Notes under the pieces: model-generated
The model's database searches: none
Seen by the model: the letters and a program-made list of their open reading frames with translations, nothing else
Told to the model about the DNA's origin: nothing
Shown: one piece after another, positions 14,751-52,013 of the stretch
How the letters are laid out: every line of letters starts with the position of its first letter
How positions within the stretch are numbered: position 1 is the stretch's first letter
Program-made: the position numbers and the translations under genes
Source: Phymorhynchus buccinoides
Taxonomy: Eukaryota > Mollusca > Gastropoda > Neogastropoda > Raphitomidae
Length of the DNA: 64,000 nucleotides
Assembly: GCA_017654935.2 (NCBI GenBank)
Contig: CM065710.1
Location: 13,137,137-13,201,136, forward strand
Reading direction: 5' to 3'

Positions 14751-15003
14751 CTAACCCCAAAGATAATAAGCAACAACAGAGAAGCACAACAGGTGTAAAA
14801 CCGTCATCGTCGGCAAACCAACGGCAACAGCGTCAGACGTTCCTTTAACGTTCCACCCCCACCCCCCAACCAATCCCACCCCCCTCTTTCTCAGCCCTAA
14901 CTCCAAAGATAATAAGCAACAACAGAGAAGCACAACAGGTGTAAAACCGTCATCGTCGGCAAACCAACGGCAACAGCATCAGACGTTCCTTTAACGCTCC
15001 ACC
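14751..15003 (-). pseudogene. Two tandem copies of the GPI-signal end of the terminal exon
   Basis: Unit 2 (about 14897-15003) and unit 3 (about 14751-14858) repeat the coding sequence from the exon's VKGTSDAVAVGLPT through the hydrophobic VLHLLCFSVVA-YYLW segment to a TAG stop. Both are 6 nt shorter in the Thr run (TMTV instead of TTTTTV). They are separated by C-rich spacer. They lie 3' of the working stop, so they would be 3' UTR or flank unless an alternative splice site were used. Keeping frame, tail and stop in both copies is notable. Confidence 0.75.
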
Positions 15004-15058
15004 CCCCCCCCCCAACCAACCCCCCCCCCCCCCCCCCCTCCCCACCTCTTTCTCCGCC

Positions 15059-15300
15059 CTAACTCCAAAGATAATGAGCAACAACAGAAAAGCACAGCAG
15101 GTGTAAAACCGTTGTCGTTGTCGTCGGCAAACCAACGGCGACAGCGTCAGACGTTCCTTTCACGTTCCACCGAAGGTCATCGCGATAGAGGTCCTCAGTG
15201 TCGAACATGACCTTGTCGATGATGTGGACGACCCCGTTCGTCCCGCCCAGGTCCGAGTGCAGGATGCTGGCGATCTTACCCCGGTAAGACACGTAGGCAT
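15059..15300 (-). CDS. FAS1 domain D, terminal exon with stop and predicted GPI-anchor signal
   Basis: Residues 485-564 and the TAG stop (15061-15059). AYVSYRGKIASIL and GTNGVVHIIDKVMF (503-517) close domain D with a strong H-x-I-D motif. After a short acidic linker (DTEDLYRDDLR) come small residues GTSDA (533-537), then Pro-Thr5 and the hydrophobic VLHLLCFSVVAHYLWS at the extreme C terminus. A small-residue cleavage region plus a terminal hydrophobic tail is the pattern of a GPI-attachment signal; the exact omega site is not determined. The acceptor is CTTCTTCAG (15301-15303). The end of the exon is tandemly repeated twice downstream (14751-15003). Confidence 0.87.
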
Positions 15301-15361
15301 CTGAAGAAGATGAAACGACAACAATGAGCACCCCCCTATTTTTCAGACTGTAAGGCGGTAC

Positions 15362-15708
15362 CAGACCTGTTCACTCTACTCTTTTCGAGTAGCATTCTAC
15401 TCAATTTGGACCTCTACTACTCTTCCAAAACTGAAAATAATGCTCTTTAATTCTTATTTATTTATTTATTTAGACAACTTTTACAGCGCCTAATCTTTAA
15501 GCTCTAAGCGCTTTACAGAAATCACTAAAATGAATAGTAAACACAATGAACAAAAAGTATTGCCTCGGAATTCTTGATTACTACTCATTTTCAGTGAACA
15601 TTATTTGATGGTTTAATGAATAAAACTACACATTTGGCACCCAAACTACTCATTTCAGCTATCCAGACTACTCAAGATAAGACGTGTAGGGGGTAAACAG
15701 AGGTTTGC
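15362..15708. mobile_element. Foldback MITE family D (CAGACCTGTTTAC), interrupted
   Basis: CAGACCTGTTCACTCTACTC … GTGTAGGGGGTAAACAGAGG, with an (ATTT)n-headed insert about 15450-15590. Confidence 0.6.
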
Positions 15709-15805
15709 GGTACAGTGGAAACCTCCCTTGTTTGGTAAAATATGTGTGTAAGACACGTAGGCGTCTTCTTCCTCTTCTGCGTTCCCAGGCAATATGGCCA
15801 TAATG

Positions 15806-16013
15806 CAGACCTGTTTACCCCCTACACAAGTCTTGAGTAGTCTGGATAGCTGAAATGAGTAGTTTTGGTGTGAAATGAGTAGTCCTCTTCATTAAACCAT
15901 CAAATAATGTTCACTAAAAATGAGTAATTAGAGCATTATTTTCAATTTTGAAGAGTAGTAGAGGTCCAAATTGAGTAGAATACTACTCGAAAAGAGTAGA
16001 GTAAACAGGTCTG
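15806..16013. mobile_element. Foldback MITE family D with 6-bp target duplication
   Basis: CAGACCTGTTTACCCCCTAC … GAGTAAACAGGTCTG, flanked on both sides by ATAATG (15800-15805 and 16014-16019). Opposite orientation to the copy at 15362. Confidence 0.75.
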
Positions 16014-16498
16014 ATAATGGATAAAGCACATATGTGTCTGGTTTTCAGTTTTCACTGGTCTCCCCGCTGCGTACAGCCGACACATTCTGACTTCGGAGGG
16101 GCTCAAAGGAGAAAAATTATTTGGAAGATTGTTTTTGAAAAAAGGCAGGAGAATGGACTGATAAGTCAGAAAGATAGTAGATGATAGAAAGCAAAGGGAA
16201 AAGGCAGAGTCAAAGAGAGTGGCAGATTAGAGGAAGTTACAAGCACAGAGCATCCAGAAGGTGGGGGAACTATTTTTACGAAAGACCCCCCGGTATCCCC
16301 ACGGGGAGACGTAGGCGTCTGAAGATGAAATGACAACAATGAGCACCCCCTATTTTTCTGACTATAAGGCGATACAGTGAAACCTCCCTTATTTGGTCAA
16401 ATATGTGTGTAAGACAATGTAGGCGTCTTAAGATGAAATGACAACAACAGAGCTGATTCTAGGATTTTGAAAATCTAGGAAAAGTTTGACCGAATGAC

Positions 16499-16550
16499 AA
16501 CTTTTTTCATTGCCACTGGGTTTAACGTGTGCTAAGTGCATGGGCACATG

Positions 16551-16581
<31 letters not shown>

Positions 16582-16708
16582 TCCCACGTTCCGACCAAAA
16601 GGTCTAGTGCAGAGTGAGAGGAAAAATCCCCTTGTAACCCAGGTTCGAACTCGGGTTGACTGTACACGAGGCGAACGTCGAACGCGTTACCTCTGTGCCA
16701 CTCTACCC
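16499..16708 (-). mobile_element. tRNA-headed SINE (family T), head and body
   Basis: Reverse-oriented body and head, with the B-box complement (CAGGTTCGAACTCGGGTTGA) at about 16640. The tail is missing. Confidence 0.7.
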
Positions 16709-16771
16709 CCCCCCCCATTATCAGACTTCCTCCCTTTTAAGACCTACTTCCCTCAGACATTGCTCTTCTGG

Positions 16772-17177
16772 CACAGCTGTTCCGTCCCACACAAAATCAA
16801 GCTATTTAGTTAAAAGCCTGAATCTGGAAATCTTAGATAAAAACTGTACCAAGCTTTTGTCTGTGAAGATATTTTGGCTGTATGCTCTACATAGTATTTC
16901 AAATATATTTCTTCCCTCAGATTTATGGTAAAAACTTATTTTTCTGAGCAGTATCAATCAACATATCTAGTAGAAATAATATACTTAGCATCACAAACAT
17001 AAATAAGATTGCCTATGAGTGAAAATCTAGCAATATCCACTGACTATAAGTAATCTTGTCACATACAACATATTCTCGCCTGTTATTTATGAACATTTAC
17101 TTATAGTTAACTAAAGTTTGCTTGAAAAAAATTCTGAAAATATAGATAAACTAAATCTTCCTCCCGAAACAGCTGTG
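16772..17177. mobile_element. MITE with CACAGCTGTTYCG ends
   Basis: 406 bp, closely similar to 59601-60009 throughout, with AT-rich non-coding interior. Confidence 0.7.
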
Positions 17178-17188
17178 CTTTGTAAGTA

Positions 17189-17399
17189 TTAACCCTTTGA
17201 CTGCCAGAGAAAATTAAAGAAAAACTCATTGGGCAAATCTTGAATCAAAAAGACAACTGATACAGCCAATCTGAAAAAAAATGGTCTGGGGATATTACTC
17301 TCTTGATTATCTTAGAGCAAAAGCCAGTATAGCAAGGTTATTCCTGTTCATCTGATGACATCATCAGGTCAGTACGTTGGTGGCAGTCAAGGGGTTTAA
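17189..17399. mobile_element. MITE with piggyBac-like ends, different interior
   Basis: TTAACCCTTTGACTGCCAG … GGTGGCAGTCAAGGGGTTTAA; ends similar to family A, interior unrelated. Confidence 0.6.
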
Positions 17400-17812
17400 A
17401 TTACCTCCTTTATACAACTCCCTCCCATTCAACTCATTCAAGTCGTTCCGGCCATATATGTCCGGAATTAATAGGTAGCTGTCAATTTGATGCATTTGCT
17501 TCAAGGGAAGTAAATCTGTGTGCACACCATACCTTGGTCATTTCTAAACTTAGACCACACTTTTGCCTCTGACTTTGCTTTTGTAGAGGTTCGTTGTGGG
17601 GTACCGAATCAGTGTAGAGAGTTTGGGTATATAAAGTCTATATTTAAAAAAGTCTGATCTACCACTTCCCTACGTCTAAACCTGAAGCAAAAACCCGTAA
17701 TCTTCTTTCATTTCTCCTTTTGTTTATGTAAGTTTTGTTTGTGTGAATGGCTGGAGTGATTTGTGAGTTTTTTTTAATAATTCAAAATCGTTGCGATGCA
17801 CATGAGCTAAGA

Positions 17813-18960
17813 CCTCACGAAAGTGCTCAGTGTACACGTTTTTTGGCACCCCCCAAAAAACCCAGGGCAGGGTTAGTTAGAACCGGGCCCACTGGTTTAG
17901 ATAAATTAAACAATTCTTTAATATTTCCAAACAACACATATTACAGAAAGCTGGGGTTGGTCTGCTGGGGGCTGCTGACGCAAGGATGGCTTGCGTATCG
18001 CCCCCCTCAGCTGTCCCGCCCCCACATGGTGTGTCGAGACCCTCCGAACCCCCCCTTTTCCCTCTTTTCTTCCCAGAGCATTTAATAAATTACTTTAAAT
18101 ACTTTTTTACTTTTAAAATAATATGTAAATATTGTCCGAGATGTAAATATTTCCCCTGCTGTTTGTTCAGGGAAGCCCTGGGGAGAGAGTTCTCTCCCCC
18201 TGGTAGGACATTTTAAAATTTTGTAATTTTGACAGTTGATATAACACTTAACAGTCAGAAATTGTGTAAATAAACAAAACAAATATTTGTATATACAACT
18301 TTTAAAATATTTTAGGGCCATTATTGGTTTTTAATAATAAAATAAAGTTTTGTTTTGTAAACCTGTAGCCCTTAAATTTTAATCACTACGTTTGTTTCGG
18401 TTTGGGCCAGACGATAAATACAAATTTTATACTATTATACTCCTTTTACATATATATGATACCACGAACCTCGGTTCCCAATCTTTTCGAGGAAGAATTT
18501 TAACTTGCCAATTACAGAATATTCGCACCCCATTTCCATTACATGTGCTGTCTATGTTTCGTCTACGTTCGTTCTGTAAATGTTTTGTCCTTGTTTTTAC
18601 ATATCTAACTATGTCCCATATGTGCATTCCCGGGTCGAGAGAACGTAACACACCAATATTTCTTCTATTACAGAAAGCAAAAGACAGCATCAACTTGCTA
18701 GCGCTTATAGCGTGCTCCTGAAATATCTCATGAAAAAATATTTGGTGAATGACAGACTGTGTAAGTACAATAATACATCATTTATACTTGATAATTGAGC
18801 AAAAGAAAAGGCAAAAAAAAATTCAAAAAAATCAAACACACACAAAGAGCATAATTATGTGCAATCAATTTAGAGACACACAGACAAAAGAGAAAATACG
18901 AAGAAGGAAAAAGCAAAGTATTTGATGAAAAAAGGGAGGAACAGGGAGAAATCTTGACAT
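17813..18960. other. Intron sequence, no exon seen
   Basis: Within the intron between exons 19403 and 15059. Contains a J-like tail at 18609-18650 (GTCCCATATGTGCATTCCCG) and AT-rich DNA. Confidence 0.5.
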
Positions 18961-18961
18961 A

Positions 18962-19409
18962 GTCTACAATACTCAAAACATTGCTCACATCTGGAGTCTA
19001 CAATACTCAAAACATTGCTCACATCTGGAGTCTACAATACTCAAAGCATTGCTCACATCTGGAGTCTACAATACTCAAAACATTGCTCACATCTGGAGTC
19101 TACAATACTCAAAGCATTGCTCACATCTGGAGTCTACAATACTCAAAACATTGCTCACATCTGGAGTCTACAATACTCAAAACATTGCTCACACATCTGG
19201 AGTCTACAATACTCAAAACATTGCTCACACATCTGGAGTCTACAATACTCAAAACATTGCTCACATCTGGAGTCTACAATACTCAACACATTGCTCACAT
19301 CTGGAGTCTACAATACTCAAAACATTGCTCACATCTGGAGTCTACAATACTCAAAACATTGCTCACACATCTGGAGTCTACAATACTCAAAACATTGCTC
19401 ACATCTGGA
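18962..19409. repeat. 13-unit minisatellite (34/36 bp) carrying the splice donor of exon 19403
   Basis: Thirteen head-to-tail units of 34 bp, three of them 36 bp through an extra CA; total 448 bp. Units are nearly identical, with single-base variants (AAAGC, CAACA). On the minus strand each contains CCAGATGTGAGC or CCAGATGTGTGAGC, the same donor context used by the adjacent exon, whose last 7 nt are in the thirteenth unit. There are no unique spacers, so this is not a CRISPR array. Confidence 0.93.
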
Positions 19410-19523
19410 GGTGACTCGGCGGTAGCGAATTTGGTCTCCATTCAGCGCTTTGTAGGTTTTCTCCGTCCGCTCCGATGTCTGATCCAAGTAGATGATGTCG
19501 TGGGTGATGTGACGAGCCAGGAC
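19403..19523 (-). CDS. FAS1 domain D, middle exon
   Basis: Residues 445-484 plus one base. VLARHITHDIIYLDQT (445-460) is the central strand of domain D, with Arg-His at the Tyr-His position. ALNGDQIRYRRVTSR is the following strand pair. The acceptor is CCATCGAACAG (19524-19526); the donor CCAGAT|GTGAGC lies at 19402-19397. Phase 0 in, phase 1 out; T joins AT of exon 15300 to make Tyr485. The last 7 nt of the exon and its donor are inside the last unit of a 13-unit 34-bp minisatellite, so the same donor sequence recurs twelve more times in the downstream intron. Reading through the true donor meets a stop after about two units. Confidence 0.88.
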
Positions 19524-19613
19524 CTGTTCGATGGGAAAAGAAGAACAAAGGAGGATGCTTTTTGTGTGTGTGTGTGTCAAAAATACCTCCAAATTACCTC
19601 CAACTTGTCTTAA

Positions 19614-20138
19614 ATGCTCATAACTCTAAAACGGAACATGTTACAAGAATGGTTATTATGTCATTGTGGACTCTTTTGGAATGAAGTTGCTGATAGAGCT
19701 GCCAAAAGAGGGGCTTTTAATAACTCTAACTTGGTTTCTAATGAGAAACTGGCATTATCAACACATGAAATTTACTGTTTATTGGAAAAATCTACTTACA
19801 TCAACTCATCTGACTTTAGATCTAACATTTTTATGCACAGTAGATCGATAGTTAGTTTAGTGTACAAGATACGACTAAATACTTGGAAACTAACTGTCTT
19901 TGTAGTGATAAATTATCAATTCATCACTTACTATTAGAATGCCCAGTATTGCTCTCTAAATATCGAATGATCAATATGGACTTTTTTTCCGTAAGTATGA
20001 TAATACCAAGGATATTTTAAATGACGCAGAAATTGACATTACTGTAATTGCAAAAGCAATGCTGTCCTCAACTATTGGAAGACTACTGTAGAGGTTTTCT
20101 TTACTTTTTTAATATGTCGTTCTTATGCATGTTATTTT

Positions 20139-20177
<39 letters not shown>

Positions 20178-20240
20178 AAAAAAAGTTTGCATGCTGTCTA
20201 AAATCACGATCTATGTGAAAAGACATTAAATTAAAGATTC
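19614..20240 (+). mobile_element. 3' end of a non-LTR retrotransposon (RNase H and Cys-His tail), frameshifted
   Basis: On the plus strand, LLCHCGLFWNEVADRAAKRG (19670-19730) resembles the end of a LINE-encoded RNase H domain (…GNE.AD..AK). Near 19900 a frame change gives NCLCSDKLSIHHLLLECPVL, a C-x-C…H-H…C tail common after RNase H in LINE ORF2, and the frame closes near 20090. A 39-bp C run and a stem-loop tail (20190-20240, TAAAATCAC…GTGAAAAGAC) follow. It is truncated 5' and not functional. It lies opposite to the fasciclin gene, in its intron. Confidence 0.7.
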
Positions 20241-20736
20241 ATTCATGTTATTTGAAAGAGAATTGTCTGACGTTTCTAACAGTACCATTGTCTCAGAATG
20301 GTCATTTTGACACTTGATGTCCCTTCCGTGGTGCTGAGTCACATATATGAGCAGGGCTGGCAAAACTTTAAAACTTTCAGGAATGAGGGGAAGTCACCCC
20401 GGATGACTAGGCTACAGTCCGCTATCATGGGAACTAACCCACCGCGATAGCCAGGCTAGTAGGCCTAGCTCCGTGGCTGACTTTGTTTATTTTATGTGTT
20501 AAGGTTTAACCCAGGTCGGTTGGTGCGTATGCAATTGTTTTAGGTGTTGGTAGTGTATGGCTAGAATAGATTGGTCATTTTGACACTTGATGTCCTTTCC
20601 GTGGTGCGGGGTCACATATATGAGCAGGGCTGGCAAAACTTTAAAACTTTCACTCGCCCTCCCGGAAAATGTGACTTGCCCAAACACATTTTCATTAGCC
20701 CAAGTAAAACGACAACTGAAATCATATAGTAATAAG

Positions 20737-20741
20737 CCAAC

Positions 20742-20807
<66 letters not shown>

Positions 20808-20810
20808 TGA
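20737..20810. repeat. (GT)n microsatellite
   Basis: About 70 bp of GT next to a GC-rich stretch (20820-21130) with ACTCCGCCGTTT…ACCGAATCGCTTCAAATTT repeated at 20830 and 21088. Confidence 0.9.
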
Positions 20811-21373
20811 AACACGAAACGGGCCTTGTAACTCCGCCGTTTTTCGACCGAATCGCTTCAAATTTGCTGTGAGCCCTAACGGGCCGATGGCAATGGCAAC
20901 CGAGGCGGCCGTGTCATTTGCGCGGTTCGGCAAATGTGCAAAACGCGCATCCGCCGGCCTCTCGGTGCTTGTATCTCCGGTGTTTCTGGACCGATTGCCT
21001 TCCAATTTGGCAGGACGATCACCGGGGACGGTGACTATCCGTGTACCAACCCGGAAGCAAATCGGTTCCAAAACGCGTGCGCTATACGACTCCGCCGTTT
21101 CTTAACCGAATCGCTTCAAATTTGCTGTACTCAGCGTTACCAGTACTTGGCGTTACCGTTACTAGGCGTTACTGGGACTCGGCGTTGCGCTAGTCCTTCA
21201 AGAAACACACACACACATACAGGGGAGAGGGAGGGAGAGAGAGGAATAGAAGAGAAAGGAGATAGGAAAAGAGACCAAAAAAGAACTTGGGAAAGAAAGT
21301 AAGGAGAGAAGCAAAGAGAAACGATGGGGGGGGGGTCGGGGGAGGAGGGAGAGAGAGAGAGAGAGAGAGGTGG

Positions 21374-21735
21374 GTGTACAGTGGCACAGTGGTAACGCGT
21401 TCGCCTCGTGTCAAGTGAACCCGAGTTCGAACCTGGGTACAGGGGATTTTTCCTCTCACTTTGCACTAGGCATTAAGGTCTGAATGTGGAGTCTTTCGGA
21501 TGATCGAGACGATAAACCGAGGTCCTGTGTGCCCATGCACTTAGCACACGTTTAACCCAGTGGCAACGAAAAAGTTGTCAATTGGTCAAAATTTACCCCC
21601 CCTCCCTTCTTTCCTCATCAGTCACAAAAAAATCGCATGCAAATTATTTTTAAAAATTGGGTGGCGCGCCTCTGGTTGCGACGCGCTCTCCAGGTGGGAG
21701 CAACCCGAATTTCACAGAGACGCCTAGCCTAACCT
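21374..21735 (+). mobile_element. tRNA-headed SINE (family T), full length
   Basis: The head GTGGCACAGTGGTAACGCGT (A-box-like) and GAGTTCGAACCTGGGTAC (B-box-like) give a tRNA-type pol III promoter. A conserved body (CTTTCGGATGA…AGACGATAAACCGAGGTCC) and a tail (GCGCTCTCCAGGTGGGAGCA … CAGAGACGCC) follow, ending in CCTAACCT. About 350 bp; the same family occurs at 27490, 44451, 31738, 56753, 16499 and elsewhere. Confidence 0.8.
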
Positions 21736-22160
21736 AAGATTGAGGAGGCTGCCTTTCCTTTCTATTCAGTACCAGTGCTGGCATGTTGTTGTCTTAGCAG
21801 ACAGCTGAGCTTGCTTTGACAGTAGGTTGGAATGGAGAGATGTGGGTAGTAAAAAAACCACCAAAACACAGGGCTGTGCAGTATTGAAATTTACAGTCGC
21901 CCATCGGGCTAGAGACTTTTGAAATCTGATCGCCCACCGATTTTTATACTAGCCTCTGCTAACCGGACTAGTACTGTATTTTACGGATACAAGGCGCACC
22001 TGATTATAAGGCGAACCCCCCAAATTTGTACACATAATTCCGATTTTGTTATTATAGTTTCTTACTATATCAATCAGACCTGTTTACCCCCTACACAAGT
22101 CTTGAGTAGTCTGAATAGCTGAAATGAGTAGTTTTGGTGTGAAATGAGTAGTCATCTTCA

Positions 22161-23281: not shown

Positions 23282-23282
<1 letters not shown>

Positions 23283-23467: not shown

Positions 23468-23602
23468 ATATCTCCATCGCTCAGCGTTGTTCTGTATGTA
23501 TTTCCCGGCTTCTTGGTTTTCGAAGAAGTCGATGGCTGTGCCGTTTGGGATGAATATGGTGAATTGACAGCGACCGGGGCATACTGACCCGCTGTTTGAT
23601 CC
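23468..23602 (-). CDS. FAS1 domain D, H1-motif exon
   Basis: Residues 400-444, phase 0 to 0, 45 codons. GSNSGSVCPGRC (400-411) is a Cys-containing loop; with Cys376 in the preceding exon it may form a disulfide (inference). QFTIFIPNGTAIDFFEN (412-428) is the FAS1 H1 motif, with Asn-Gly where Thr-Asp/Asn is usual. AGKYIQNNAERWRY follows as helix. The acceptor is GTGTCTCAG (23603-23604), the donor TAT|GTAAGT. A CAGGGTTC-type element begins 36 bp upstream of the acceptor (23639). Confidence 0.87.
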
Positions 23603-26751: not shown

Positions 26752-27274
26752 CAGGGTTCGTACGGATATTTCATACCAAAATTCACAAACTTTCAAACCC
26801 ATTTTCAAAGACCCTTTATCCTATTTTCAAAGACCTCTAACGACATACAATCCCAATAAAGTTTATCAACTGAAAACCCCCCACATTCTTTTCTATTTGA
26901 TGACGATTGCTTCGATCACGATCATTCAAGTTGCACCTGTGTAGCCAAAAGACCCAGATATAGCGAAGGGAAGTAACTCTCAACAAATCGAGGTTGTCTG
27001 CTAGACAGAACTATATCGTCGAAAACCGCAGATATCAGAAAATAAACCAAATTAAATGGCTTCTTTCTTAATTTTGGAAGCAAACAAAAAAAGGTTTTAT
27101 GGCATCAATGACTTTCACAAACCATTTCACAATTTTCACAGACCACAGCCAATTTTCAAAGACTTTCAAAGACTTGAAAGTGGCACTCCATTTCTCAAAG
27201 ACTTTCAAAGACTTGAAAATGGCACTCCATTTCTCAAAGACTTTCAAAGACCTTCAAAGACCGTGCGAACCCTG
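26752..27274. mobile_element. hAT-like MITE (CAGGGTTCGTAC ends) beside exon 27291
   Basis: CAGGGTTCGTACGG … CCGTGCGAACCCTG with TCCGCC at both borders; interior has repeated TTTCAAAGACTT. It ends 16 bp from the exon. Related copies at 40254-40685 (flanks TTGTGA) and 23639-24175. Confidence 0.72.
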
Positions 27275-27290: not shown

Positions 27291-27435
27291 GCTGATTCTT
27301 CCGTCAAAGGTGCTGCTGTATACATCAGGACTGGAGCGCACCCCACCCCCTGTCGTGCAAGGAGCCAGCGTCGTCAGTCGAGTGTCTCTCATGTAGTCGT
27401 TCAGGCCAGTAACAGACAGCTGCAGAGACGATTTG
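27291..27435 (-). CDS. FAS1 domain D, N-terminal exon with Cys/Gly-rich insert
   Basis: Residues 351-399. KSSLQLSVTGLNDYMRDTRL (352-371) is the opening helix of domain D, followed by TTLAPCTTGGGVRSSPDVY, a low-complexity insert not usual in FAS1 domains, and STFDGRIS. The acceptor is TTTCTGATTCCACAG (27436-27437), the donor AATCAGC|GTAAGT. The first C completes Ile351; the exon ends in phase 0. Domain D is therefore cut by one more intron than B and C. The first ~63 nt of this exon plus its acceptor are repeated three more times upstream (27844-28250). A hAT-type MITE ends 16 bp beyond the donor at 27274. Confidence 0.85.
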
Positions 27436-27489
27436 CTGTGGAATCAGAAACGCAAACGATGATGACGATGATGATGATGATGATGATGA

Positions 27490-27578
27490 TGCCTCGTGTC
27501 AAGTAAACCCGAGTTTGAACCTGGGTACAGGGGATTTTTCCTCTCATTTTGCACTAGGCCGTGCAGTCTGAACGTGGA

Positions 27579-27612
<34 letters not shown>

Positions 27613-27826
27613 GTGCTCATGCACTTAGCACACATTAAACCCAGTGGCAATGAAAAAGTTCTCATTTGGTCAAAATCTACCCCCTGTCACACAAAAAATC
27701 GCATGCCCAATTTAAAAAAAAAAATTGGGTGGCGCGCCTCTGGCTGCGACGCGCTCTCCAGGTGGGAGCAACCCGAATTTCACAGAGACGCCTCTGTGAC
27801 TATAATGTACCTAACCTAACCTAACA
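27490..27826 (+). mobile_element. tRNA-headed SINE (family T), 5'-truncated
   Basis: Begins inside the head at CCTCGTGTCAAG, directly after a (GAT)n tract, and continues through the B-box to the CCTAACCTAACC tail. It separates the true exon 27291 from the three acceptor copies. Confidence 0.8.
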
Positions 27827-27843
27827 ATGAGCATGATAATTTT

Positions 27844-27934
27844 AGTCGAGTGTCTCTCATGTAGTCGTTCAGTCCAGTGACAGACAGCTGCAGTGACGAT
27901 TTGCTGTGGAATCAGAAACGCAAACGATGATGAC

Positions 27935-27966
<32 letters not shown>

Positions 27967-28250
27967 CAACGATGATGATGATGATGATGACAGTGATGAT
28001 GGTGATGATGATGATAACAATGAACATGATGGTTTTAGTCGAGTGTCTCTCATGTAGTCGTTCAGTCCAGTGACAGATAGATGCAGCGACGATTTGCTGT
28101 GGAATCAGAAACGCAAACGATGATGACGATGATGATGATGATGATGATGATGAGCATGATGATTTTAGTTGAGTGTCTCTCATGTAGTCATTCAGTCCAG
28201 TGACAGACAGCTGCAGCGACGATTTGCTGTGGAATCAGAAACGCAAACAG
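27844..28250 (-). repeat. Three extra copies of the exon 27291 acceptor and 5' part, separated by GAT repeats
   Basis: Copies at about 27844-27930, 28037-28120 and 28167-28250 contain the acceptor tract TTTCTGATTCCACAG followed by ~63 nt matching the start of exon 27291-27435. Acceptor-adjacent C bases are at 27903, 28096 and 28226, against 27435 in the full exon. Each keeps the reading frame for the opening helix, then breaks off after CTCGACT or its equivalent into intron and a (GAT)n tract. Base changes are mostly silent. A tRNA-type SINE separates the first extra copy from the true exon. Confidence 0.9.
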
Positions 28251-31066: not shown

Positions 31067-31214
31067 ATGAGCCAGTCTTCGCAGAAGATGGTGTTAGGAA
31101 CGTCCCTGTTGGGCGCGCCGGGCACAGCGTCTATGAAGTGAACAAAGCCGTTGGTCACAGCCACGTCCGGTCGGACAACGCGCGCCTTCACGTAGCCAGA
31201 CTCTATCCACGTTT
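31067..31214 (-). CDS. FAS1 domain C, C-terminal exon
   Basis: Residues 302-350 plus two bases. ETWIESGYVKARVV (302-315) and TNGFVHFIDAVPGAP (322-336) are the last strands of domain C. CEDWL (346-350) starts the linker to domain D. Acceptor TTTCTTTTTAG (31215-31217); donor CTCAT|GTGAGG. Reading through the donor gives Met then TGA, which could be taken for the end of the gene. Splicing at GTGAGG instead joins AT to the C of exon 27435, making Ile and keeping the frame, and domain D clearly follows. A second copy lies at 55892-56039 with three synonymous differences. Confidence 0.9.
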
Positions 31215-34324: not shown

Positions 34325-34457
34325 CATTGCCCTGACTGTAGACGTGCACCGGTCGGCGGAAATATTGCGACGTCAGCGACTGTCGCGCTTCGTAATCGCC
34401 GTTCACCGCCGTTAACGAGAACTCCTGTCCCACCTCTAGCAACGATAGCTCAATGAT
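34325..34457 (-). CDS. FAS1 domain C, middle exon
   Basis: Residues 258-301 plus one base. IIELSLLEVGQEFSLTAV (258-275) followed by LTSQYFRRPVHVYSQ form the middle of domain C. The Tyr-His pair of classic FAS1 domains is not present. The acceptor is TTCTTTTTCAG (34458-34460), the donor AATG|GTGAGTT; phase 0 in, phase 1 out, as in domains B and D. A second copy at 59328-59460 differs by one synonymous base. A dispersed-repeat composite ends about 20 bp beyond the donor. Confidence 0.9.
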
Positions 34458-38226: not shown

Positions 38227-38722
38227 GTTAAAGGTTAGCTATCAGACAAGTGATTGCTCTACACATTTTTTATTCTACTCAGTTTCCAGGCACGCTTAAG
38301 TCCAAAAAGTGGATTCCAGGGACAGGGTGCCATTTTTAACTGTTTTCAGGGACAAATACCCCTTAGGGGGGATGGTTACGACAGCCCTGCATCACCAACA
38401 GGACCTACCTTGTTGAAATTTGCAAGGGAGTTAATTTTGGGGGCATCATGAGTTTTTTTCTGTGTTACAAAATTTCATGTAATCGGTATGGCAACCACTA
38501 GGAAATGAAATATTTCACACACAAAAAAAAGTAATTGGGTGACAGCTTTTCGCAACACCTACTTTGTTTTTAAATCCATTTGTTATCTTTAAATTAATCA
38601 TTAAATTAATCAGTTATCTTTTGACCAAATGATTTCCCTTTGTAAATCACAGACCTACCTTGTGGTGACTTGGCTTGCTAAAAAAATCAAGAATACTACC
38701 TTTACTATTAAAACAACTACTT

Positions 38723-39127
38723 GTGGCGGTGCCATAGCCGATGAGGTTAAACCGAGGCGTGGTCACCGCTACAGCTATCTGTATTATATATTAAAAAATC
38801 GGGACTTTACTGGTTTCGTACTGCCTCCGGGCATTGCCTCCAGTATTGTTCCAACCATATTTGTATTTACAAATGTCCCATATGTGTCTGATTCAGACCA
38901 AGAGGACGTAAAACTCCATTTTCTCTTTACTTGTGGCGGTGCCATAGCTGATGAGGTTTAACCGAGGCGTGGTCACCGCTACAGCTATCTGTATTAATTT
39001 TTTTTTTAAATCGGGACTTTACTGGTTTCGTACTGCCTCCGGGCATTGCCTCCAGTATTGTTCCCACCATATTTGTATTTACAAATGTCCCATGATTCAG
39101 ACCAAGAGGACGTAAAACACCATTTTC
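38723..39127 (+). mobile_element. Two tandem copies of repeat J beside exon 39151
   Basis: Copies at 38723-38928 and 38934-39127 in the same orientation. The second ends about 24 bp from the donor of exon 39151. Confidence 0.7.
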
Positions 39128-39150
39128 GCTTCGCTCGCTCGCGGACCTAC

Positions 39151-39304
39151 CTTGTTGATCAGAGACTGGTTTCGGTTCAAGTTGTAGAAAGCAGGGAGGT
39201 TAGTGAAGGCGTCATTGATGGGGACGAAGAGAGTTACCCCACTTGGGTTGACGATCATCTGGTTCAACTCGTTACGAGCCTTCTGCAGCAGCTCTTCGAA
39301 AACT
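39151..39304 (-). CDS. FAS1 domain C, first-half exon
   Basis: Residues 206-257. VFEELLQKARNELNQM (207-222) is the opening helix and GVTLFVPINDAFTNLP (228-243) the canonical FAS1 H1 motif, the best match in the window. NQS (251-253) is a potential N-glycosylation site. The acceptor is TTGACAG (39305-39306), preceded by a weak pyrimidine tract; the donor is AACAAG|GTAGGT. The first base completes Arg206 and the exon ends in phase 0. A short-repeat SINE tail with an AAT tract adjoins the acceptor. Degenerate copies of the donor edge lie downstream near 38650 and 38400. Confidence 0.92.
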
Positions 39305-41155: not shown

Positions 41156-41300
41156 CGTGTCAGGGGGCTGATTTCGATCTCCTCCTTGGCGGAATTGTAG
41201 ACATATCCCAGCAGCGTGTCGATCATGTGCACGGCGCCGTTTCGGCACGTGATGTTGCCGTGGGTGATCTGAGCCGTCACCCCGCCGCTGTTCACATACA
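41156..41300 (-). CDS. FAS1 domain B, C-terminal exon
   Basis: Residues 158-205 plus two bases. VYVNSGGVTAQI (158-169) then CRNGAVHMIDTLLGYV (176-191) are the closing strands of domain B, with the H-x-I-D signature at 182-185. NIT (173-175) is a potential N-glycosylation site just before Cys176. The acceptor is GTGTGCAG (41301-41303), the donor ACACG|GTAAGG. The exon starts with two bases (TG completing GTG) and ends in phase 2. A copy of a dispersed repeat (41071-41127) ends about 28 bp from the donor. Confidence 0.88.
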
Positions 41301-42583: not shown

Positions 42584-42589
42584 ACTGAT

Positions 42590-43500: not shown

Positions 43501-43624
43501 CTGCTTCTCTGGCGATGTTGGTTCTAAAGATGATCTGGCCTTTGCCCAAGTTGTTGATGCCTTCGTTGTGATAAACGAACGAGGTGTAGATCACCTTGTC
43601 TGGGATGGTGTGCAGCAAGGCAAC
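43501..43624 (-). CDS. FAS1 domain B, middle exon
   Basis: Residues 117-157 plus one base. VALLHTIPDKVIYTSFVY is the central strand of a FAS1 domain: LLHTIP sits where many family members have the Tyr-His pair thought to matter in integrin binding, and here the Tyr is replaced by Leu. KGQIIFRTNIAREA follows as the strand before the N-G turn. The acceptor is GTTGTTCAG (43625-43627), the donor GCAG|GTGGGT, phase 0 to 1. The preceding exon ends in phase 0 and the next begins with two bases, so the frame is continuous. The intron to exon 44221 is only 596 bp, the shortest in the gene. Confidence 0.88.
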
Positions 43625-44220: not shown

Positions 44221-44398
44221 CTCTTTCAATCTCTCGGGGTTGCTCCTGAGCACCTGCATCTTGTCGTTGGGTATTCTGGCGAGGGCCTCTCGCGTGGGAA
44301 TGAAGGTCGTCACCTTCCTGTACGTGTTCAGTGGATCGACCGCAGCCTCGTAGTTACTCCCCAGCAGAAGTTTGAGGATTTCTGTGTAGAACGATGTG
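44221..44398 (-). CDS. FAS1 domain B, first-half exon
   Basis: Residues 57-116. TSFYTEILKLLLGSNYEA (58-75) is the opening amphipathic helix of a FAS1 domain. YRKVTTFIPTREALARIP (83-100) is the characteristic strand-turn-helix, with TTFIPT in place of the more common TLFVPT. The acceptor is AAATTGTAG (44399-44400) after a TTCTTTTTTTT tract; the donor is GAG|GTGGGT. The single C before ACA completes the phase-2 codon left by exon 49018, and the exon ends in phase 0. GC content and codon use are higher than in the AT-rich, repeat-filled introns. A tRNA-type SINE begins about 55 bp upstream in gene orientation. Confidence 0.9.
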
Positions 44399-44450
44399 CT
44401 ACAATTTGAAAAAAAAAGAAGAAAGAAAAAAGAAGTAAAAATGTAATTAG

Positions 44451-45007: not shown

Positions 45008-45905
45008 GTATGGAGTCCACCTAAAAAACTTTAACACGGAATCTTAGCCCCTTCAACAGCGCTGGATTCAAGCACTACATGGTGATGCTGATCATTTGTC
45101 CACTTTCCTAAACGAGAAGCTAACTGCAGTCTGGACTCCAATTTTCATTGGACGATGTCAGCAAGTGGTGGCCATTTTTTCATTAGTAGGCTATCGTCTG
45201 ATTCTGACTCGTAACGCTGAGCTACTCAACTGGATAATTATACAGCGTGGTTGTGGAGCAGCAGGAAGAAAAATAAAACAAAATGAAAGAAGCAACTGAA
45301 AAGAAATGAACTAAAAATATAGAGATCTCCCCAGCGTTTCACGGCTCCAGCATCTATCGTCTGCTGCAAAGCGATGTTGCAAACTAATGCCGTTCGCGAA
45401 GTAGGCTGGAACTAGACCAGTGGAAAACAATGGGGTTCTTTTGTGCTAGACATCGGCCTTTCTCAGTTTCTGTTGTATCGTTGTGTTATGGGAAGGGTTT
45501 TCTCGACAAGTCAGACTCAGTTACTGACAGTTTAGTCACACTTTGATTTCGGGCTGGAGCGTGGGAGTCAAACTTTGTTACAAGTTACGAAGTTAGCGTA
45601 GGCCTATCGTCCAATGAAAATTGGAGTCCAGACTGCGGTTAGCTTCTCATCTTTCCTAAGACATCAAAGAGTGCGTCATGGTCATAAAATTAGCATGTCT
45701 GAGATGTTAACTCGCGTTCTTTGTCTCCAGTGAGATCCTGTGAATTTGCTTACTATTGTTTGATGAGACAAAGAATGACCATTGCACTCTTTGATGTCTT
45801 AGGAAAGTGGACAAATGATCAGCATCAACATGCAGTGCTTGAATCCAGCGCTGTTGAGGGGCTTAGATTTCGTGTGAATTATTTTTAGGTGGACTCCATA
45901 CTTTC
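45008..45905. mobile_element. Foldback element with long (>140 bp) inverted ends
   Basis: GGTATGGAGTCCACCTAAAA … TTTTTAGGTGGACTCCATAC. The left arm (45008-45155) matches the right arm (45776-45905), and an inner segment around 45135-45165 pairs with 45612-45645. An internal palindrome is built on AGACATCAAAGAGTGC. No coding frame. Confidence 0.7.
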
Positions 45906-45912
45906 AGAGCCT

Positions 45913-46162
45913 TTAACCCTTTCGCCGCCAGCCATTTGTTTTTTAGCAAAAATATATAATTAAGCTGAACAGGGTAGAAATAAAAATGTATCTGCAGTAT
46001 TGGGAATTCCTCTGTGAAATGCATAACATTAGGCCCATCCTTACCTCCCAAAATTAAGAAAATAAGGTCTTCAGATAACAGGCCCTGATTTGATGCCTTT
46101 TAGTGAGATGGGTGTTAAACCTTTGTGGTGCATAAAAGAGACATTGGCGGTGAAAGGGTTAA
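45913..46162. mobile_element. piggyBac-like MITE (family A)
   Basis: TTAACCCTTTCGCCGCCAGC … TTGGCGGTGAAAGGGTTAA with intact TTAA borders. Confidence 0.72.
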
Positions 46163-46489
46163 GCGAGGGAAAAAGTAACAAAATACTGATGCAATACATC
46201 TTCTTCTTCTTCTTCGTCGATCATTCAGACAGGAACCCCAGCGGCACGAACAAAGGCTGCCGTCCGCCGAAGATCCTCCGAAGAGGCGAGACATTCAAGA
46301 CATTATTTCGAAAGTGACTTTCTCCGTGCCTCTCTCCACATACAAATATTTTTTTTCTCTCTCTCTCTCTCTTAGCTGCCTCCTTTGCTATCTGGAAGTC
46401 TAAAGTTGGACAGGACTGGGTGGCACATACACACACACACATATGCAACACACACACATATACACACACAACACATATACACACAGTAG

Positions 46490-46890
46490 CCCAGCCATCA
46501 ATTTTCAGTAGCATGGCAAATTTTTCCGTAGCATCCACAAACAACAGCAATCGATTTGTTCTCTGCCTGAGCCGAAACGCACTGCTTAATATGTTTCGCC
46601 GATTGAATGTGTTGACGGCAATCGTCTCTACCACCATGATTCACAGAGAAGTCCGCATGGCAGAGGTTGCACTGCAGCGAGCATGGTTCGCACCGAGTCA
46701 ACTTCTGACGATGCAAGGCCACTCCTCCGTGTAAGCTATTTTAAAAACTTGTGCGGCAGGCCAATGTTTTTTCTTAGAACAAGATGGTGTGCCAGATGAT
46801 TTTCGTTTTCTGGTTTGGGTTCGTTTTTCTTCGTTTGAAACATCTCCCGAATCGCTACTGCTGCTGGAGTCCGCCATTTTTTCCAGAGAA
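46490..46890 (-). pseudogene. hAT-type transposase N-terminal fragment with zinc finger, frameshifted
   Basis: Minus strand: MADSSSSSDSGDVSNEEK (about 46878) and KHWPAAQVFKIAYTEEWPCI, then, one frame over, CNLCHADFSVNHGGRDDCRQ and HIQSAKH. C-x-x-C…H-x-x-x-x-x-H with HGGRxD is the BED-like finger found at the start of many hAT transposases. The frame change and lack of the rest make it a relic. Its right flank TAGCAGTAGGCAGGTCTG may be the element end. Confidence 0.6.
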
Positions 46891-47578
46891 AGTAATAAGA
46901 ACGCATGCGCAGTCACTTTGATAAAAACGGAAGTGACTAGGTTATCGCGCGTGACACAGCGTCTGCTCTTAGAAACAGACAAAACCGGGAACGGCATAAG
47001 CAAAAATAAAATGCGGCGGCAATTTGTTTTTTCCGTAGCAACGTTAAGGTTGCCGTAGCTCCGTAGCAAAGCTTTATTTTTCGTAGCTGCTACGGCCAAA
47101 TCGTAGCAGTAGGCAGGTCTGACACATACACATGGGTGTAACTACACAAAATTAAAAAACCCTGAAAGGCCGGGAACCAGGGGTAATGCTCCCCTGCAGC
47201 TGAAGCAAAAATTGATTTATGAAGGTATTTTAGTTTTACTTTTTCCACAATTTATACAAACGCTTATCTTTAAAGTGTTTGAAAAATACAGTAGACACAC
47301 AAAAGATCTTGTTTGACAAATTCAGGCATGGTAGTGAGGGCAAAGTGGTTTTCAAGGAAAATGGCTGGGGGTCCAGGGGGGCGAAGAAAATTCAATAAAA
47401 TTCAATAAATGAGAGTGACATTTTCACTTTTTTCATGCCATTTCAATGCATTTTTTTAATAATTTTGTTTCAAACTGTTTTGCGGATTTTCCGCGATTCG
47501 CAGAGGTCTACCATGCCTGTGAAATTTAAAAAACAACAACTTCCTTTTCTGGTAAAATTCAAGAACAGGAAATCCTTG

Positions 47579-47878
47579 TATAGAGGGATCCGGGATAGCG
47601 TCATAATGTCACGTGATTTTGTTGGTAACGAAAGTCGGACGCCATTTTGGCTGGAGCGCCGTTTTGGTTCAGATTACAGAGGTGAGCGTCAGTGAGTTTC
47701 GACAAATCGTCACAATGGTAATAAACTGTGCAGTAGTTAAATGTTCAGGACTAAAAGCAAACATCAGAATACATTGCGTTCCACCGCCAAGTATCTTAGC
47801 AACCCGAATAATCCAGCCGTCATGGCCGACAGAGGTGACATTCTCATTTGCATACATGAACCCGGATCCCTCTATACC
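47579..47878 (+). mobile_element. MITE with possible THAP-domain start
   Basis: Ends TATAGAGGGATCCGGG/CCCGGATCCCTCTATA. Plus-strand frame from 47715 begins MVINCAVVKCSG, like the M-x-x-x-C-x-x-x-x-C start of a THAP zinc finger (P-element/THAP9 type). It is inserted in a copy of the 12116-12391 repeat, whose intact version (CTTGTAAACCAGG) gives the empty site. Confidence 0.5.
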
Positions 47879-47908
47879 AGGAAAAGTTGCACCCAGGCAC
47901 ACACACAT

Positions 47909-48392
47909 TACATAGCTGCCAACTTTTCCCAAACAAACTCCTGGAGGGAGATTGGTGATCTTCGATTGCCGTCCTCCCTTCATACGACACGTTTACTGTG
48001 CAGCGGCAAACTGTGCAAAAAGCACAGTATTTGTCCTGAGGACAGCTGTCGATGAAGTCAAATGCTTTGTATTCTTCTGAAAAGACGGTCTTCCATTTCT
48101 TCGTTTTCTCCTTTGCCTTCGGCATCGTGGCGAGGTTACTTCAATGGCGGCGTGAGACAGGCCTAAAGACCGCCAAACAAAGGATTGCAGGAGGAAGTAG
48201 CCCCCGCTTCCGACATGCGCAGTACGAACTCTGCTCCGCGAGAGCTTCCTGAAACCCAGTTTCAGTTTTCGGGTTTCATAACACTCGTTTCTGAGGTCAT
48301 CTAAGCTGGAAATTTTGAAATCCGGGAGTTTCACATGAATTCCGGGAAGACCGGGAGAGGTGACAAAATTTACCGGGAGGGTTGGCAGGTAT
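47909..48392 (-). mobile_element. Non-autonomous element (CATACCTGCCAAC ends) with zinc-finger relic
   Basis: Ends CATAGCTGCCAAC and GTTGGCAGGTATG. On the minus strand from 48125: MPKAKEKTKKWKTVF, then CAFCTVCRCTVNVSYEGRTA, a BED-like finger of the hAT transposase type, cut after about 60 residues. Confidence 0.55.
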
Positions 48393-48430
48393 GCAATACA
48401 GCATAGTACCATACACCATAACATACTAAG

Positions 48431-49003
48431 TACCGTATTTTTCGGATCATTAGGCGCTGCTGTGCATAAGGCGAATAGGGCATTTTTCAAGAAAAATCTG
48501 AAAAAATTCAAGTAAAAGGCGCCCTCGTTTATAAGGCAAAAGAAAGTTGAAGTTTGAAGCCCGTACACGTCCTGTAAATGCTTACCGACCGCCATTACTG
48601 CTGTCATAAACGAGAGTTGGCTCCCTTCTCAAATAATCGAAACTTCCGTTTTTGCGACTTCCGGTTCTTGTGTTTGGACTTTTCTTCGCGAAAACTTAGT
48701 AGAATTATGGCATTTTAAGCTCTACAACGATGCTTTTTACATCCAATTAAGGGTTATGGCATCTGTTGGATGGTATCTCGGACGATAATAGGGATTTTGA
48801 AGCATTTTAACGTGAGTATTTCGTCGTATCGGCGACTCATTACCACTTTCGATGTTGTGACTCACAGTAGACTGTACTGAGTACGGCAATCGTTGCCCCT
48901 CTCTTCTCACGATTTTGTTCACTAATAGGGCGCCCTCGTTTATTAGGCGCATAGGTCGAAATTGGAGAAAAAAGTATCGCCTTATAATCAAAAAATCACG
49001 GTA
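48431..49003. mobile_element. Long family C element ending at a splice donor
   Basis: TACCGTATTTTTCGGATCAT at the left and ATAATCAAAAAATCACGGTA at the right. The right end is about 12 bp from the donor (49017) of exon 49018. Confidence 0.6.
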
Positions 49004-49017
49004 ACTCAATAACTCAC

Positions 49018-49187
49018 TCTGGCTGCCCCTCCACAGAGATGTAGCCCAGCACACTCTTTTCGCTGGGCACCTCCAGCACCCGGTCGATGACGTGGATCAC
49101 CGCCTGGCCCGCCTGGATGTTGGGCCGAAGCAGCCGGGCTCCGTTGGCGTAGTACTCTGTCGGGCCCGCCAGACCCCCCGCTGTGTT
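49018..49187 (-). CDS. FAS1 domain A, C-terminal exon
   Basis: Encodes residues 1-56 of the model plus two bases of residue 57. YYANGARLLRPNI (12-24) and AVIHVIDRVLEVP (29-41) are the paired final strands of a FAS1 domain, the second carrying the H-x-I-D signature. The linker SVLGYISVEGQP leads to domain B. The acceptor follows CTCCTCAACCAG (49188-49189) and the donor is GTGAGT. The exon ends in phase 2 (CCA GA) and the next exon supplies C, making Asp. An alternative acceptor 7 nt further in (ACAG) would change the incoming phase, so phase 0 is preferred but not certain. A terminal-inverted-repeat element ends about 15 bp beyond the donor at 49003. Confidence 0.85.
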
Positions 49188-49591
49188 CTGGTTGAGGAGA
49201 GATTGGCAGAACCGTGCATGACGAAAATTTAAAGTGAAAAAAACACCCCACAAAAAACAAACCACCATGTTTTAGCCCTTTCCTTTTTTTTTGTTTTGTT
49301 TTTTGTTTTTTGCTGTCCCATCTTCTGGGCCGCTCGTTCCAAATCCCAATTCGCAGCTTAGTCCCCGGTTTGTTCAAGTCACAGAATCGGGCCAAGTCCA
49401 GCAGTCCAAGGGGAGCGAATCTATGCTAGGCCATCACCGCCAGCCAATGCAGATTTTGTCATTATATTTTCTTACTATTTCATCAGTCACATTATAAGGC
49501 GCAGGGGTCTGAGTCTAGGAAAAAAAAGTATCGCCTTATAGTCCGTACAATACGATAGTAATAATAATAGTCTATCATTTTCTATGTTACT

Positions 49592-49839
49592 TTAACCCTT
49601 TCACCGCCAGCCATATTTCAGCCACAAATGTCCATTAGATTTACCTGGGTAGAGAACAAAATCCATCTGCAGTATTGGGGGATTCTTCTGTGACATATAT
49701 AAAAATAAGGTCTATCCTTACTTCCCAAAACTAAGACAATAGGGTCTTTGGATAATAGACCACAGTTTGATGCCTTTTAGTGACATAGGTGTTAAATCAC
49801 TGTGGTGTTGAAATGCGACTTTGGCGGTGAAAGGGTTAA
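49592..49839. mobile_element. piggyBac-like MITE (family A)
   Basis: Complete copy with TTAA borders, just before the donor minisatellite. Confidence 0.75.
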
Positions 49840-50691
49840 TCCCTTCACTGCCAGAGGAAAACGGATAAATTATAAATTTTTACCCCTTCCCTGCGCACTC
49901 TTTTGCTGAGACAGTGCAATACTATGATGGATTACCTACCCCTTCCCTGCGCACCCTTTTGCTGAAACAGTACAATACGATATATGTATACTATGACGGA
50001 TTACCTACCCCTTCCCTGCGCACTCTCTGAAACAGTACAATACGATATATGTATACTATGACGGATTACCTACCCCTTCCCTGGCGCACTCTTTTGCAGT
50101 ACAGTACAATACGATATATGTATACTATGATGGATTACCTACCCCTTCCCTGCGCGCACTCTGCCCCTTTTTAGCGGCCTTCCAAACAGTACAATACGGA
50201 TATATGTATACTATGATGGATTACCTACCCCTTCCCTGCGCACCCTTTTGCTGAAACAGTGCAATACTATGATGGATTACCTACCCCTTCCCTGCATCAC
50301 TCTTTAGCTGAAACAGTGCATTACTATGATGGATTACCTACCCCTTAAATTTCCCTGCACACTCTTTTGCTGAAACAGTGCAATACTATGATGGATTACC
50401 TACCCCTTCCCTGCACGCTCTTTTGCTGAAACAGTGCATTACTATGATGGATTACCTACCCCTTATTTCCCTGCACGCTCTTTTGCTGAGACAGTATTTG
50501 GTATATTCTGGTCACAGAGACATATCTCTGTGAAATACGGGCTGCTCTCCCCCGGAGAGCGCATCACCGCCAAGTGCAGCGCTTACTCTTTTTTTTTAAA
50601 GTGGAGGGTGGGGGCCAGGGTGGAGGAGGTGGGGGGCACACTTGGAAACCTAGCTATCAATTTGGCCATACAGGCAGCGGGATTTCTCACT

Positions 50692-51145
50692 GCGCTGACA
50701 ACTTTCCACTGCCGTGGTATTTACGTGCGGAAAACGCACTGTTCAGACTAGCTTTAAGTCCCCGCATCCGAAGGACTTGACGTTCAGCTTCGTTTCCTGT
50801 AAAACTAGCAAAGAAAAAACGCGGGAGGCCGGATCGAACCCGGGTCACTCCCGCTGCGACAGTCACGTCATTACATTTGGCAGGCGAACGTCTCAGGGCT
50901 CCCAATCGTCCCGCAAACGAGGGGTCCCAATGGACTCCTTCACTTACAGTTATAGGAGGAGCCCTAGAGGCGGGACAGAGGGTCCAGTGCATAGTGGACG
51001 CTAAAATAATTTTTCTAGTGCAATCCCTGGGACCCCCTGTGCATTCTTTTTAGGGTGTCCTGTCAATTTTAGTGATGTCATAGAACCCCCCCCACCCCAA
51101 ATGTTGGTCCCTGGAGCCCTGCGTCTTAACCACTCTGCCACCTTT
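50692..51145 (-). mobile_element. SINE family U copy split by a hAT-like MITE
   Basis: CACTGCCGTGGTATTTACGT to GGCAGGCGAACGTCT matches family U. The head resumes after 51120 (CGTCTTAACCACTCTGCCAC). The break is filled by an element with CAGGGCTCC/GGAGCCCTG ends. Confidence 0.65.
50896..51120. mobile_element. hAT-like MITE (CAGGGCTCC ends) inside a SINE
   Basis: Terminal inverted repeats CAGGGCTCC … GGAGCCCTG, with CGTCT repeated at both borders as the visible part of the target duplication. It sits within SINE family U. Confidence 0.6.
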
Positions 51146-51361
51146 GTCCCTGCTCACAATGCTGCGATGGATCCCTACCCCTTCCCTGCGCACTCTTTTG
51201 CTAACATTACAATACGTATATTTATACTAGATGGATTACCTACCCCTTCCCTGCGCCTCTTTTGCTGAAAACAGTACCATACACTATAGCATACTATGAT
51301 GGAGTACTCCCCTTCCTGGCGCACATCTTTTGCTGAAACAGTACAATACGATATATGTATA

Positions 51362-51886
51362 CAGACAAACCCTATTTTAGACTTCCCAAAATGTCCGGAA
51401 AATCGGTCGTGAATTGGAGGGGTCTTATGACGGAGGTTTTCACTGCAGCCGTATAAAGAAAAAGTTCAGCACAGTTCTAATCTCTTCTTCATGCACACAT
51501 ACAATGACCTATTAAAACTGGATTTGGTCTTTCCCTCCATAGATTGTGCATCGATGTATTACAGTTTCACTTCGCCACTTCTTTAATCACCTCCACTCTC
51601 TCCAAATCATGGTTTTCTTTTTCAAGTCAGTGTTTTCGTGCTTTTCCTACGCTCTCCGCCATCTTTTCCACAACAAGGTGGAAGCGACTCCGGCTTTCCA
51701 GGCCCTGACCGTGGTTTTTATCCCTTGCTCAAGCGTCTATGCAGACAACAGCAACGGTCGTTAAAAACAACAAATGGCGGTCTAAGTCGGTTTTAGAGAG
51801 TCGTTTTACGAGAGGTCGTTTACATAGTAAATGCTCTGTGCCAACAAATCCGGTCTCAATGAGAGGTGGTCGCTTGGGTTTGTCTG
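51362..51886. mobile_element. Mariner-like MITE family E, reversed, inside the donor minisatellite
   Basis: CAGACAAACCCTATTTTAGA … GGGTTTGTCTG with TA at both borders. It lies between the last array unit and exon 51907, and is indel-rich compared with the other copies. Confidence 0.7.
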
Positions 51887-51906
51887 TACTATGATGGATT
51901 ACCTAC

Positions 51907-52013
51907 CCCTTCCTGGCACCTCCTTTTGCTGAGGAAGATGAGGTGCTGTGGGTGGATCGACTCTGCTCTCCGGTTGTTGTCAGGGTAGATGTCGTCCGTA
52001 CCTCTTTAGGGTA
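51907..52013 (-). CDS. FAS1 domain A, internal exon, probably frameshifted by a 1-nt error
   Basis: The acceptor TTTCAG lies at 52017-52014, after a T-rich tract, and the donor GTAGGT at 51906-51901. Read from the acceptor in phase 0 it begins YPKEVR; shifted by one base after that it gives TDDIYPDNNRRAES followed by IHPQHLIFLSKR. The H-L-I segment fits the middle of a FAS1 domain (compare LLH and LARHI in the exons at 43501 and 19403). Neither frame alone is convincing. The length is 107 nt, one short of the 108 expected for a phase 0 to 0 exon feeding the phase-0 exon at 49187. The surrounding 50-55 kb is rich in small indels, so a base-calling deletion is more likely than true loss. The donor end is the template of the minisatellite downstream. 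Confidence 0.5.

Follow-up and report, generated by a model that had tools for sequence, protein, structure and literature searches.

Here we report that minisatellite-like arrays straddle exon borders more often than expected in exons sampled from the genome of the gastropod Phymorhynchus buccinoides (genome size 2.1 Gb). The pattern was first seen in a window of 64,000 nucleotides (nt) of contig CM065710.1 (assembly GCA_017654935.2, positions 13,137,137 to 13,201,136), in a fasciclin-1-like gene, encoded on the minus strand, at several of whose junctions the exon edge is copied in tandem into the adjoining non-coding DNA. In exons sampled from other genes, 23 of 97 edges lie in such border arrays where the intron background of these loci predicts 6.1, a ratio of 3.75 that none of 20000 simulations reached. 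We suggest, at a probability of roughly 0.6, that these are "mirage"-type minisatellites, that is, short local tandem duplications spanning exon borders in a genome with very active local duplication.

Border arrays in the fasciclin gene

A preliminary description of the window listed five sites in the fasciclin gene at which separate, unrelated repeats span an exon edge, and at four of them (arrays A to D, Table 1) this is borne out. Each unit of array A joins about 25 nt of exon E52 to the donor GTAGGT and intron sequence; the units lie in clusters interrupted by other sequence, and GT is retained in 12 of the 13 counted, the exon unit included. A further partial unit near 49.9 kb was left out of this count; the preliminary description had given about 14 donor copies. 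Array B, in which the acceptor TTCCACAG is repeated together with about 63 nt of exon E27, has the four units first described; AG is retained in all four, and other sequence separates the exon unit from the next. The thirteenfold repetition of the E19 donor was likewise recovered: an array C unit consists of the last 8 nt of E19, the donor GTGAGC and intron sequence, every unit reads CTCCAGAT followed by GTGAGC, three of them as GTGTGAGC, and the first holds the last 8 nt of E19. Array D repeats the end of the last coding exon, with its glycosylphosphatidylinositol (GPI)-type tail, three times as claimed, in copies that are 88% identical. Since this end with its stop codon is repeated too, splice signals are not required for border copying.

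The fifth site, described as decayed donor edges at 38.4-39.2 kb, fared less well. What stands is a weak match of 16 nt, TCAACAAG followed by GTAGGTCC, which is at best the decayed remnant of a copied E39 donor edge; in R2, another copy of the locus discussed below, the corresponding copy extends over 33 nt (31 of 33 identical), with 25 exon nt followed by GTAGGTCC. The rest is mostly a 212-nt tandem pair after E39 (38718-39131), which we rejected as a border copy and take to be a dispersed element because it resembles sequence elsewhere in the region. Similar sequence occurs both some 4 kb ahead of the window and close to the remaining locus copies.

Three of the 23 edges of the gene (11 donors and 12 acceptors) are spanned by arrays, against 0.57 expected by hand computation from the share of window positions in outermost repeat units (2.0% for donor-like and 2.95% for acceptor-like positions). 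As the gene was chosen because the pattern had been seen in it, the independent test comes from exons sampled from other genes.

Excess of arrays at exon borders of other genes

The sample was drawn from the best 30 of 127 matches to AAA_6 (dynein), 12 of the 47 matches for adaptin and 14 of the 54 for chaperonins. The latter two sets were hand-picked roughly in order of E-value, and no written rule governed the omission of long single-frame matches, near-duplicates and some others. One truncated locus (L036) and three related duplicates (L028, L031, L044) were excluded before counting, leaving 52 exons that a hand grouping of loci assigns to 36 genes; 7 of the 104 edges were dropped for poor splice scores. 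Local repeat pairs had to span at least 35 nt at 75% identity or more within 1 kb, after removal of low-complexity sequence, and an edge qualified when it fell within the exon-side-most unit of such a pair, 5 nt or more from the end of that unit. Because an exon edge can only occupy an outermost unit, outermost units of intron arrays rather than whole arrays served as the control, a switch that was made after a first test result had been seen.

Overlap of repeats with exon edges exceeds chance in these exons, as the preliminary description had supposed, and the excess involves both acceptors (10/48) and donors (13/49). It holds for pairs of at least 85% identity (15/97 against 4.7; 2 of 20000 simulations) and for recent pairs only, at 92% or more (11/97 against 3.2; 3 of 20000). 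At the 75% threshold the dyneins give 10 of 49 edges against 3.6 and the chaperonins 10 of 27 against 1.4. Bootstrapping over genes gives a ratio of 3.7 (2.3-5.3), restriction to one exon per gene leaves 15 of 67 edges against 3.6, and the ratio climbs to 4.6 under stricter splice scores. The preliminary description concerned one gene, but the pattern is not confined to it: at least one border array was found in 12 of the 36 sampled genes. When at least two intron copies were required that also match each other, 12 of 97 edges still qualified against 3.05 (2 of 20000 simulations), and 7 against 1.96 at 85% identity or more, which limits any bias arising from exon conservation.

Coverage by outermost units reaches 31% over the final 50 bases of exons that end at donors and 20-23% on both sides of acceptors, and falls to 0-5% at 200-450 bp from the edge. 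The median unit size is 129 nt at borders and 141 nt in introns, so alike that the same process is probably at work in both. Arrays at both the acceptor and the donor of one exon were found in 6 of 46 exons (Fisher 0.020), as if some neighbourhoods were hot.

Some single loci are worth recording. Four of the 14 sampled chaperonin exons (L060, L062, L064, L065) have border arrays at both edges, L065 with eight donor-side copies at 119-nt spacing. In the adaptin locus L055, an array of about 744 nt in 38-nt steps reaches 2 nt past the acceptor into the exon, too shallow to be counted. Inspection of the family tables by eye showed a second, partial match next to an exon repeatedly in dynein (127 rows), at two related exons in adaptin (47 rows), and once each in the chaperonins (54 rows) and myosin (68 rows).

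State of the copies

Selection for decoy or backup splice sites, by which the copies would protect or regulate splicing, was among the causes offered in the preliminary description. The retention of GT in 56 of 57 array A units across three copies of the locus, and of the splice dinucleotide in 59 of 65 sampled copies, would be in keeping with it, but 55.3 of 65 are already expected from the other dinucleotides of the same pairs; the copied splice dinucleotides are thus kept no more than others, which argues against such selection. Compared codon by codon, moreover, the exonic part carries an indel or a stop in 22 of 47 copies, and in array D a stop-codon end is copied as well. We regard selection for decoys as very unlikely.

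Among variable sites in the exonic parts, 34 of 64 fall at third codon positions (P 0.00086). CpG was considered as the source of this skew and is not seen to be, its share of the variable sites being close to 21% at all three codon positions. The skew suggests, short of proof, that the copies were minted from, or exchanged sequence with, the exon while the exon was under coding constraint. It could also arise if the copies themselves served as alternative exons or alternative exon edges and were constrained for that reason, and exon E27 fits either account, 12 of its 13 differences from its three copies in the window (6 of 7 distinct sites) being at third positions. Against such use, the 22 copies just mentioned are broken, the array B copies have no donor evident to the eye, and the protein matches P0001 to P0003 show no extra residues at these junctions, so that we consider it, too, very improbable. 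Copies of E27 in the more diverged locus copy R4 are more mixed, with 2 of 7 differences at third positions in the outermost, decayed one.

Two further properties of the arrays were compared. At L027 and L065 the intronic parts of the exon unit and its copies are 97-99% identical and the exonic parts 0.69-0.89, but a second script gave 0.86 and 0.93-1.00 for the exonic parts; as the two scripts disagree, the contrast between intron and exon is not secure. For a possible "conveyor belt" order, in which the youngest copies would lie nearest the exon, the rank correlation ranges from -0.89 to +0.32 and is below zero in 6 of 7 arrays.

Proposed explanation

We propose that local duplications are born or survive more often in exons and their surroundings than elsewhere in introns, and that those falling wholly inside an exon would be purged by selection; one repeat pair lies wholly within the 52 sampled exons. 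A duplication that crosses the border would leave an intact edge on the exon side and so could be tolerated and expand into the intron. Sequence may then pass between array and exon edge, with selection keeping the exon itself unchanged, so that exon-like synonymous variants would appear among the copies. Splicing would continue at the exon-side site, with the copied signals as passengers. Two mechanisms named in the preliminary description, slippage whose products survive only where they fall outside the reading frame and a preference for certain places in the growth of repeats, are each compatible with this proposal and probably act together.

Several points weigh against it. The exons were hand-picked from family tables, their edges are predicted rather than transcript-based, and all come from one genome. 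The adaptins show no significant excess (3 of 21 edges against 1.1 at 75% identity or more, 1 of 21 against 0.9 at 85% or more). Coverage by outermost units climbs again to 4-16% beyond 450 bp from donors and reaches 13% at 1.1-1.2 kb from acceptors. Without L030 the third-position skew weakens to 21 of 44 sites (P 0.033), and synonymous changes of the exon itself can account for some of it. No cause was found for more duplication at exons: GC explains little, and as sole cause it was rejected, since a GC-matched control moves the expectation only from 6.1 to 7.5. Exon conservation, finally, could keep pairs of exon and copy detectable up to twice as long, and could by itself yield an excess of up to a factor of two; doubling the GC-matched expectation gives 15, against the 23 edges seen.

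On the most sceptical account there is no bias at all: local tandem copies would be frequent enough in introns for exon edges to be caught up in them by chance, and the apparent excess would consist of old duplications kept visible by exon conservation. As much as 23% of intron control positions do lie in some local tandem copy, a first strict test with centred 30-mers, positive at 7 of 57 edges where 15% of intron positions lay in some copy, suggested no excess, and the adaptins alone show none. With the outermost-unit control, however, the word test gives 15 of 97 edges against about 5%, and the 3.75-fold excess obtained with that control persists among pairs of at least 92% identity and among intron copies that match each other. 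We consider the absence of any bias unlikely, and prefer local tandem duplication with a preference for exon borders.

Other copies of the locus

The window sequence is interrupted by a gap of 500 N (Table 1), and three more copies of the locus (R2, R3 and R4; L is the copy in the window) follow it within 95 kb. R2 has long stretches of 95-98% identity, R3 is inverted with long stretches 96-98% identical to the window copy, and R4 is diverged, with exons 94-95% identical; the extra copies may be mis-placed haplotypes or true duplicates. Array A has 13 units in L, 20 in R2 and 24 in R3, copies that may be haplotypes or paralogues, but array B has four in L, in R3 and also in R4, where AG is missing from the outermost unit. 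Since the other locus copies carry the arrays, array A at different unit numbers, the arrays are probably old and can change in length.

The gap, the inverted and two further locus copies nearby, and small frame-breaking indels in E52 would be in keeping with an assembly artefact, produced by false repeat expansion or mis-joined haplotypes. The reading frame of E52 is broken in the window copy but intact in R2 and R3; unpolished sequence is likely at 49.9-52 kb, and the unit counts of array A are approximate. The presence of array B with four units not just in L and R3 but in R4, the more diverged copy, speaks against an artefact, as do border copies common to both members in three pairs of related dynein loci and the occurrence of the pattern in 12 of the 36 sampled genes; we hold this explanation to be extremely unlikely.

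Relation to known border duplications

Although the preliminary description knew of no named mechanism, the structure already has a name. Two papers (PMC3087553, PMC3902484) describe "mirages" in the lancelet genes Adh3, the globins BflGb6 and BflGb9, TnC and PGBD5: minisatellite-like tandem duplications of the exon-intron border, at either edge and with the splice signals copied, which vary in unit number between haplotypes, are homogenised within clusters, and leave splicing undisturbed in reverse transcription PCR (RT-PCR). Their mechanism is there called unclear (PMC3087553). Like mirages so described, the snail arrays A, B and C and the 23 sampled edges combine exon sequence with the adjoining splice site, and either edge is involved; unlike them, they occur in a mollusc and in many genes of one genome, with the excess over introns measured. 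Human internal tandem repeats at exon-intron boundaries in segmental duplications (PMC2812944) likewise run across borders in variable number; those concern recent paralogues with coding change or new introns, whereas in the snail the genes are conserved and, judging by phase, their structure is unchanged. Tandem duplication that leads to intron gain (PMC4974935, and the Rogers model as cited in PMC3087553) is likewise reported to copy splice signals, but in the snail no new intron is seen and an existing one has grown. In the open-access papers searched we found border arrays in lancelets and humans, none in a mollusc, and no measured excess at borders over introns.

If our reading is correct, border-spanning minisatellites, so far described from single genes of lancelets, are a frequent genome feature in an animal far from lancelets, with a measurable bias towards borders. 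The origin of new splice sites and introns would become partly countable. A bolder and rather doubtful extension is that borders act as master copies minted repeatedly into introns, an exon-linked hot spot whose copies would carry past synonymous alleles, push the intron outward, and provide a permanent nursery in which introns lengthen and new splice sites or whole introns can arise. On this view, its presence in both lancelets and snails would imply either two origins or a wide but overlooked occurrence. On a practical level, gene annotators should be aware that copied borders may mimic exon edges.

The fasciclin gene and other features of the window

Protein matches and FAS1 domains identify the gene as fasciclin-1-like. 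The top protein matches of nine joined exon pieces are gastropod fasciclin-1-like proteins, including P0002 of Nucella lapillus as well as P0001, and Pfam Fasciclin (PF02469) matches five of the eight pieces submitted, two of them above its cut-off. With P0001 and P0002, tblastn gives a co-linear match for 11 exons, from 49187 to 15059, covering P0001 from residue 132 to its end; the twelfth exon, E52, was placed by eye from the open copies in R2 and R3, whose translation fits P0001. The window did not yield the 5' portion of the gene.

Phase agrees with P0001 at three joins: E31, ending in AT, and E27, beginning with C, give ATC (I); E19, ending in T, and E15, beginning with AT, give TAT (Y); and E52, which ends in GGG before gtaggt, joins E49 in agreement with the P0001 residues. 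We therefore take the exon-side copy as the working edge, and a functional exon-side site with normal splicing would fit both phase and the proteins of relatives.

Table 1. Positions of arrays, exons and gap in the window (residues are those of the fasciclin protein P0001)
Feature	Positions	Strand	Remarks
Array A, E52 donor	49887..51930	-	13 units counted, usual spacing 56-71 nt
Array B, E27 acceptor	27373..28250	-	4 units including exon, ~130 nt
Array C, E19 donor	18961..19410	-	13 units of 34-36 nt
Array D, E15 end including stop codon	14751..15171	-	3 copies, spacing 145 and 169 nt
Possible remnant of copied E39 donor edge	38401..38416	-	16-nt match
Intronic array, 39 nt	27152..27259	-	about 30 nt after E27 donor, edge not spanned
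Exon E52	51907..52013	-	residues about 97-131; by eye via R2/R3; frame broken in window copy by small indels
Exon E49	49018..49187	-	residues 132-188; tblastn
Exon E44	44221..44398	-	residues 189-248; tblastn, edges by eye
Exon E43	43501..43624	-	residues about 249-288; tblastn, edges by eye
Exon E41	41156..41300	-	residues 288-337; tblastn, edges by eye
Exon E39	39151..39304	-	residues 338-388; tblastn
Exon E34	34325..34457	-	residues 388-432; tblastn, edges by eye
Exon E31	31067..31214	-	residues 433-482; tblastn, edges by eye
Exon E27	27291..27435	-	residues 483-530; tblastn
Exon E23	23468..23602	-	residues 531-577; tblastn, edges by eye
Exon E19	19403..19523	-	residues 577-616; tblastn
Exon E15, last coding exon	15059..15300	-	GPI-type tail (by eye) and stop TAG; tblastn
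500-N gap	55113..55612	.	followed by second locus copy (from 30.8 kb on)

The window also holds a tandem array of 144-170 nt units at 5880-6515, away from the identified exons, and two GA-rich simple-repeat tracts of about 0.8-1 kb each at 52153-53123 and 4865-5623.

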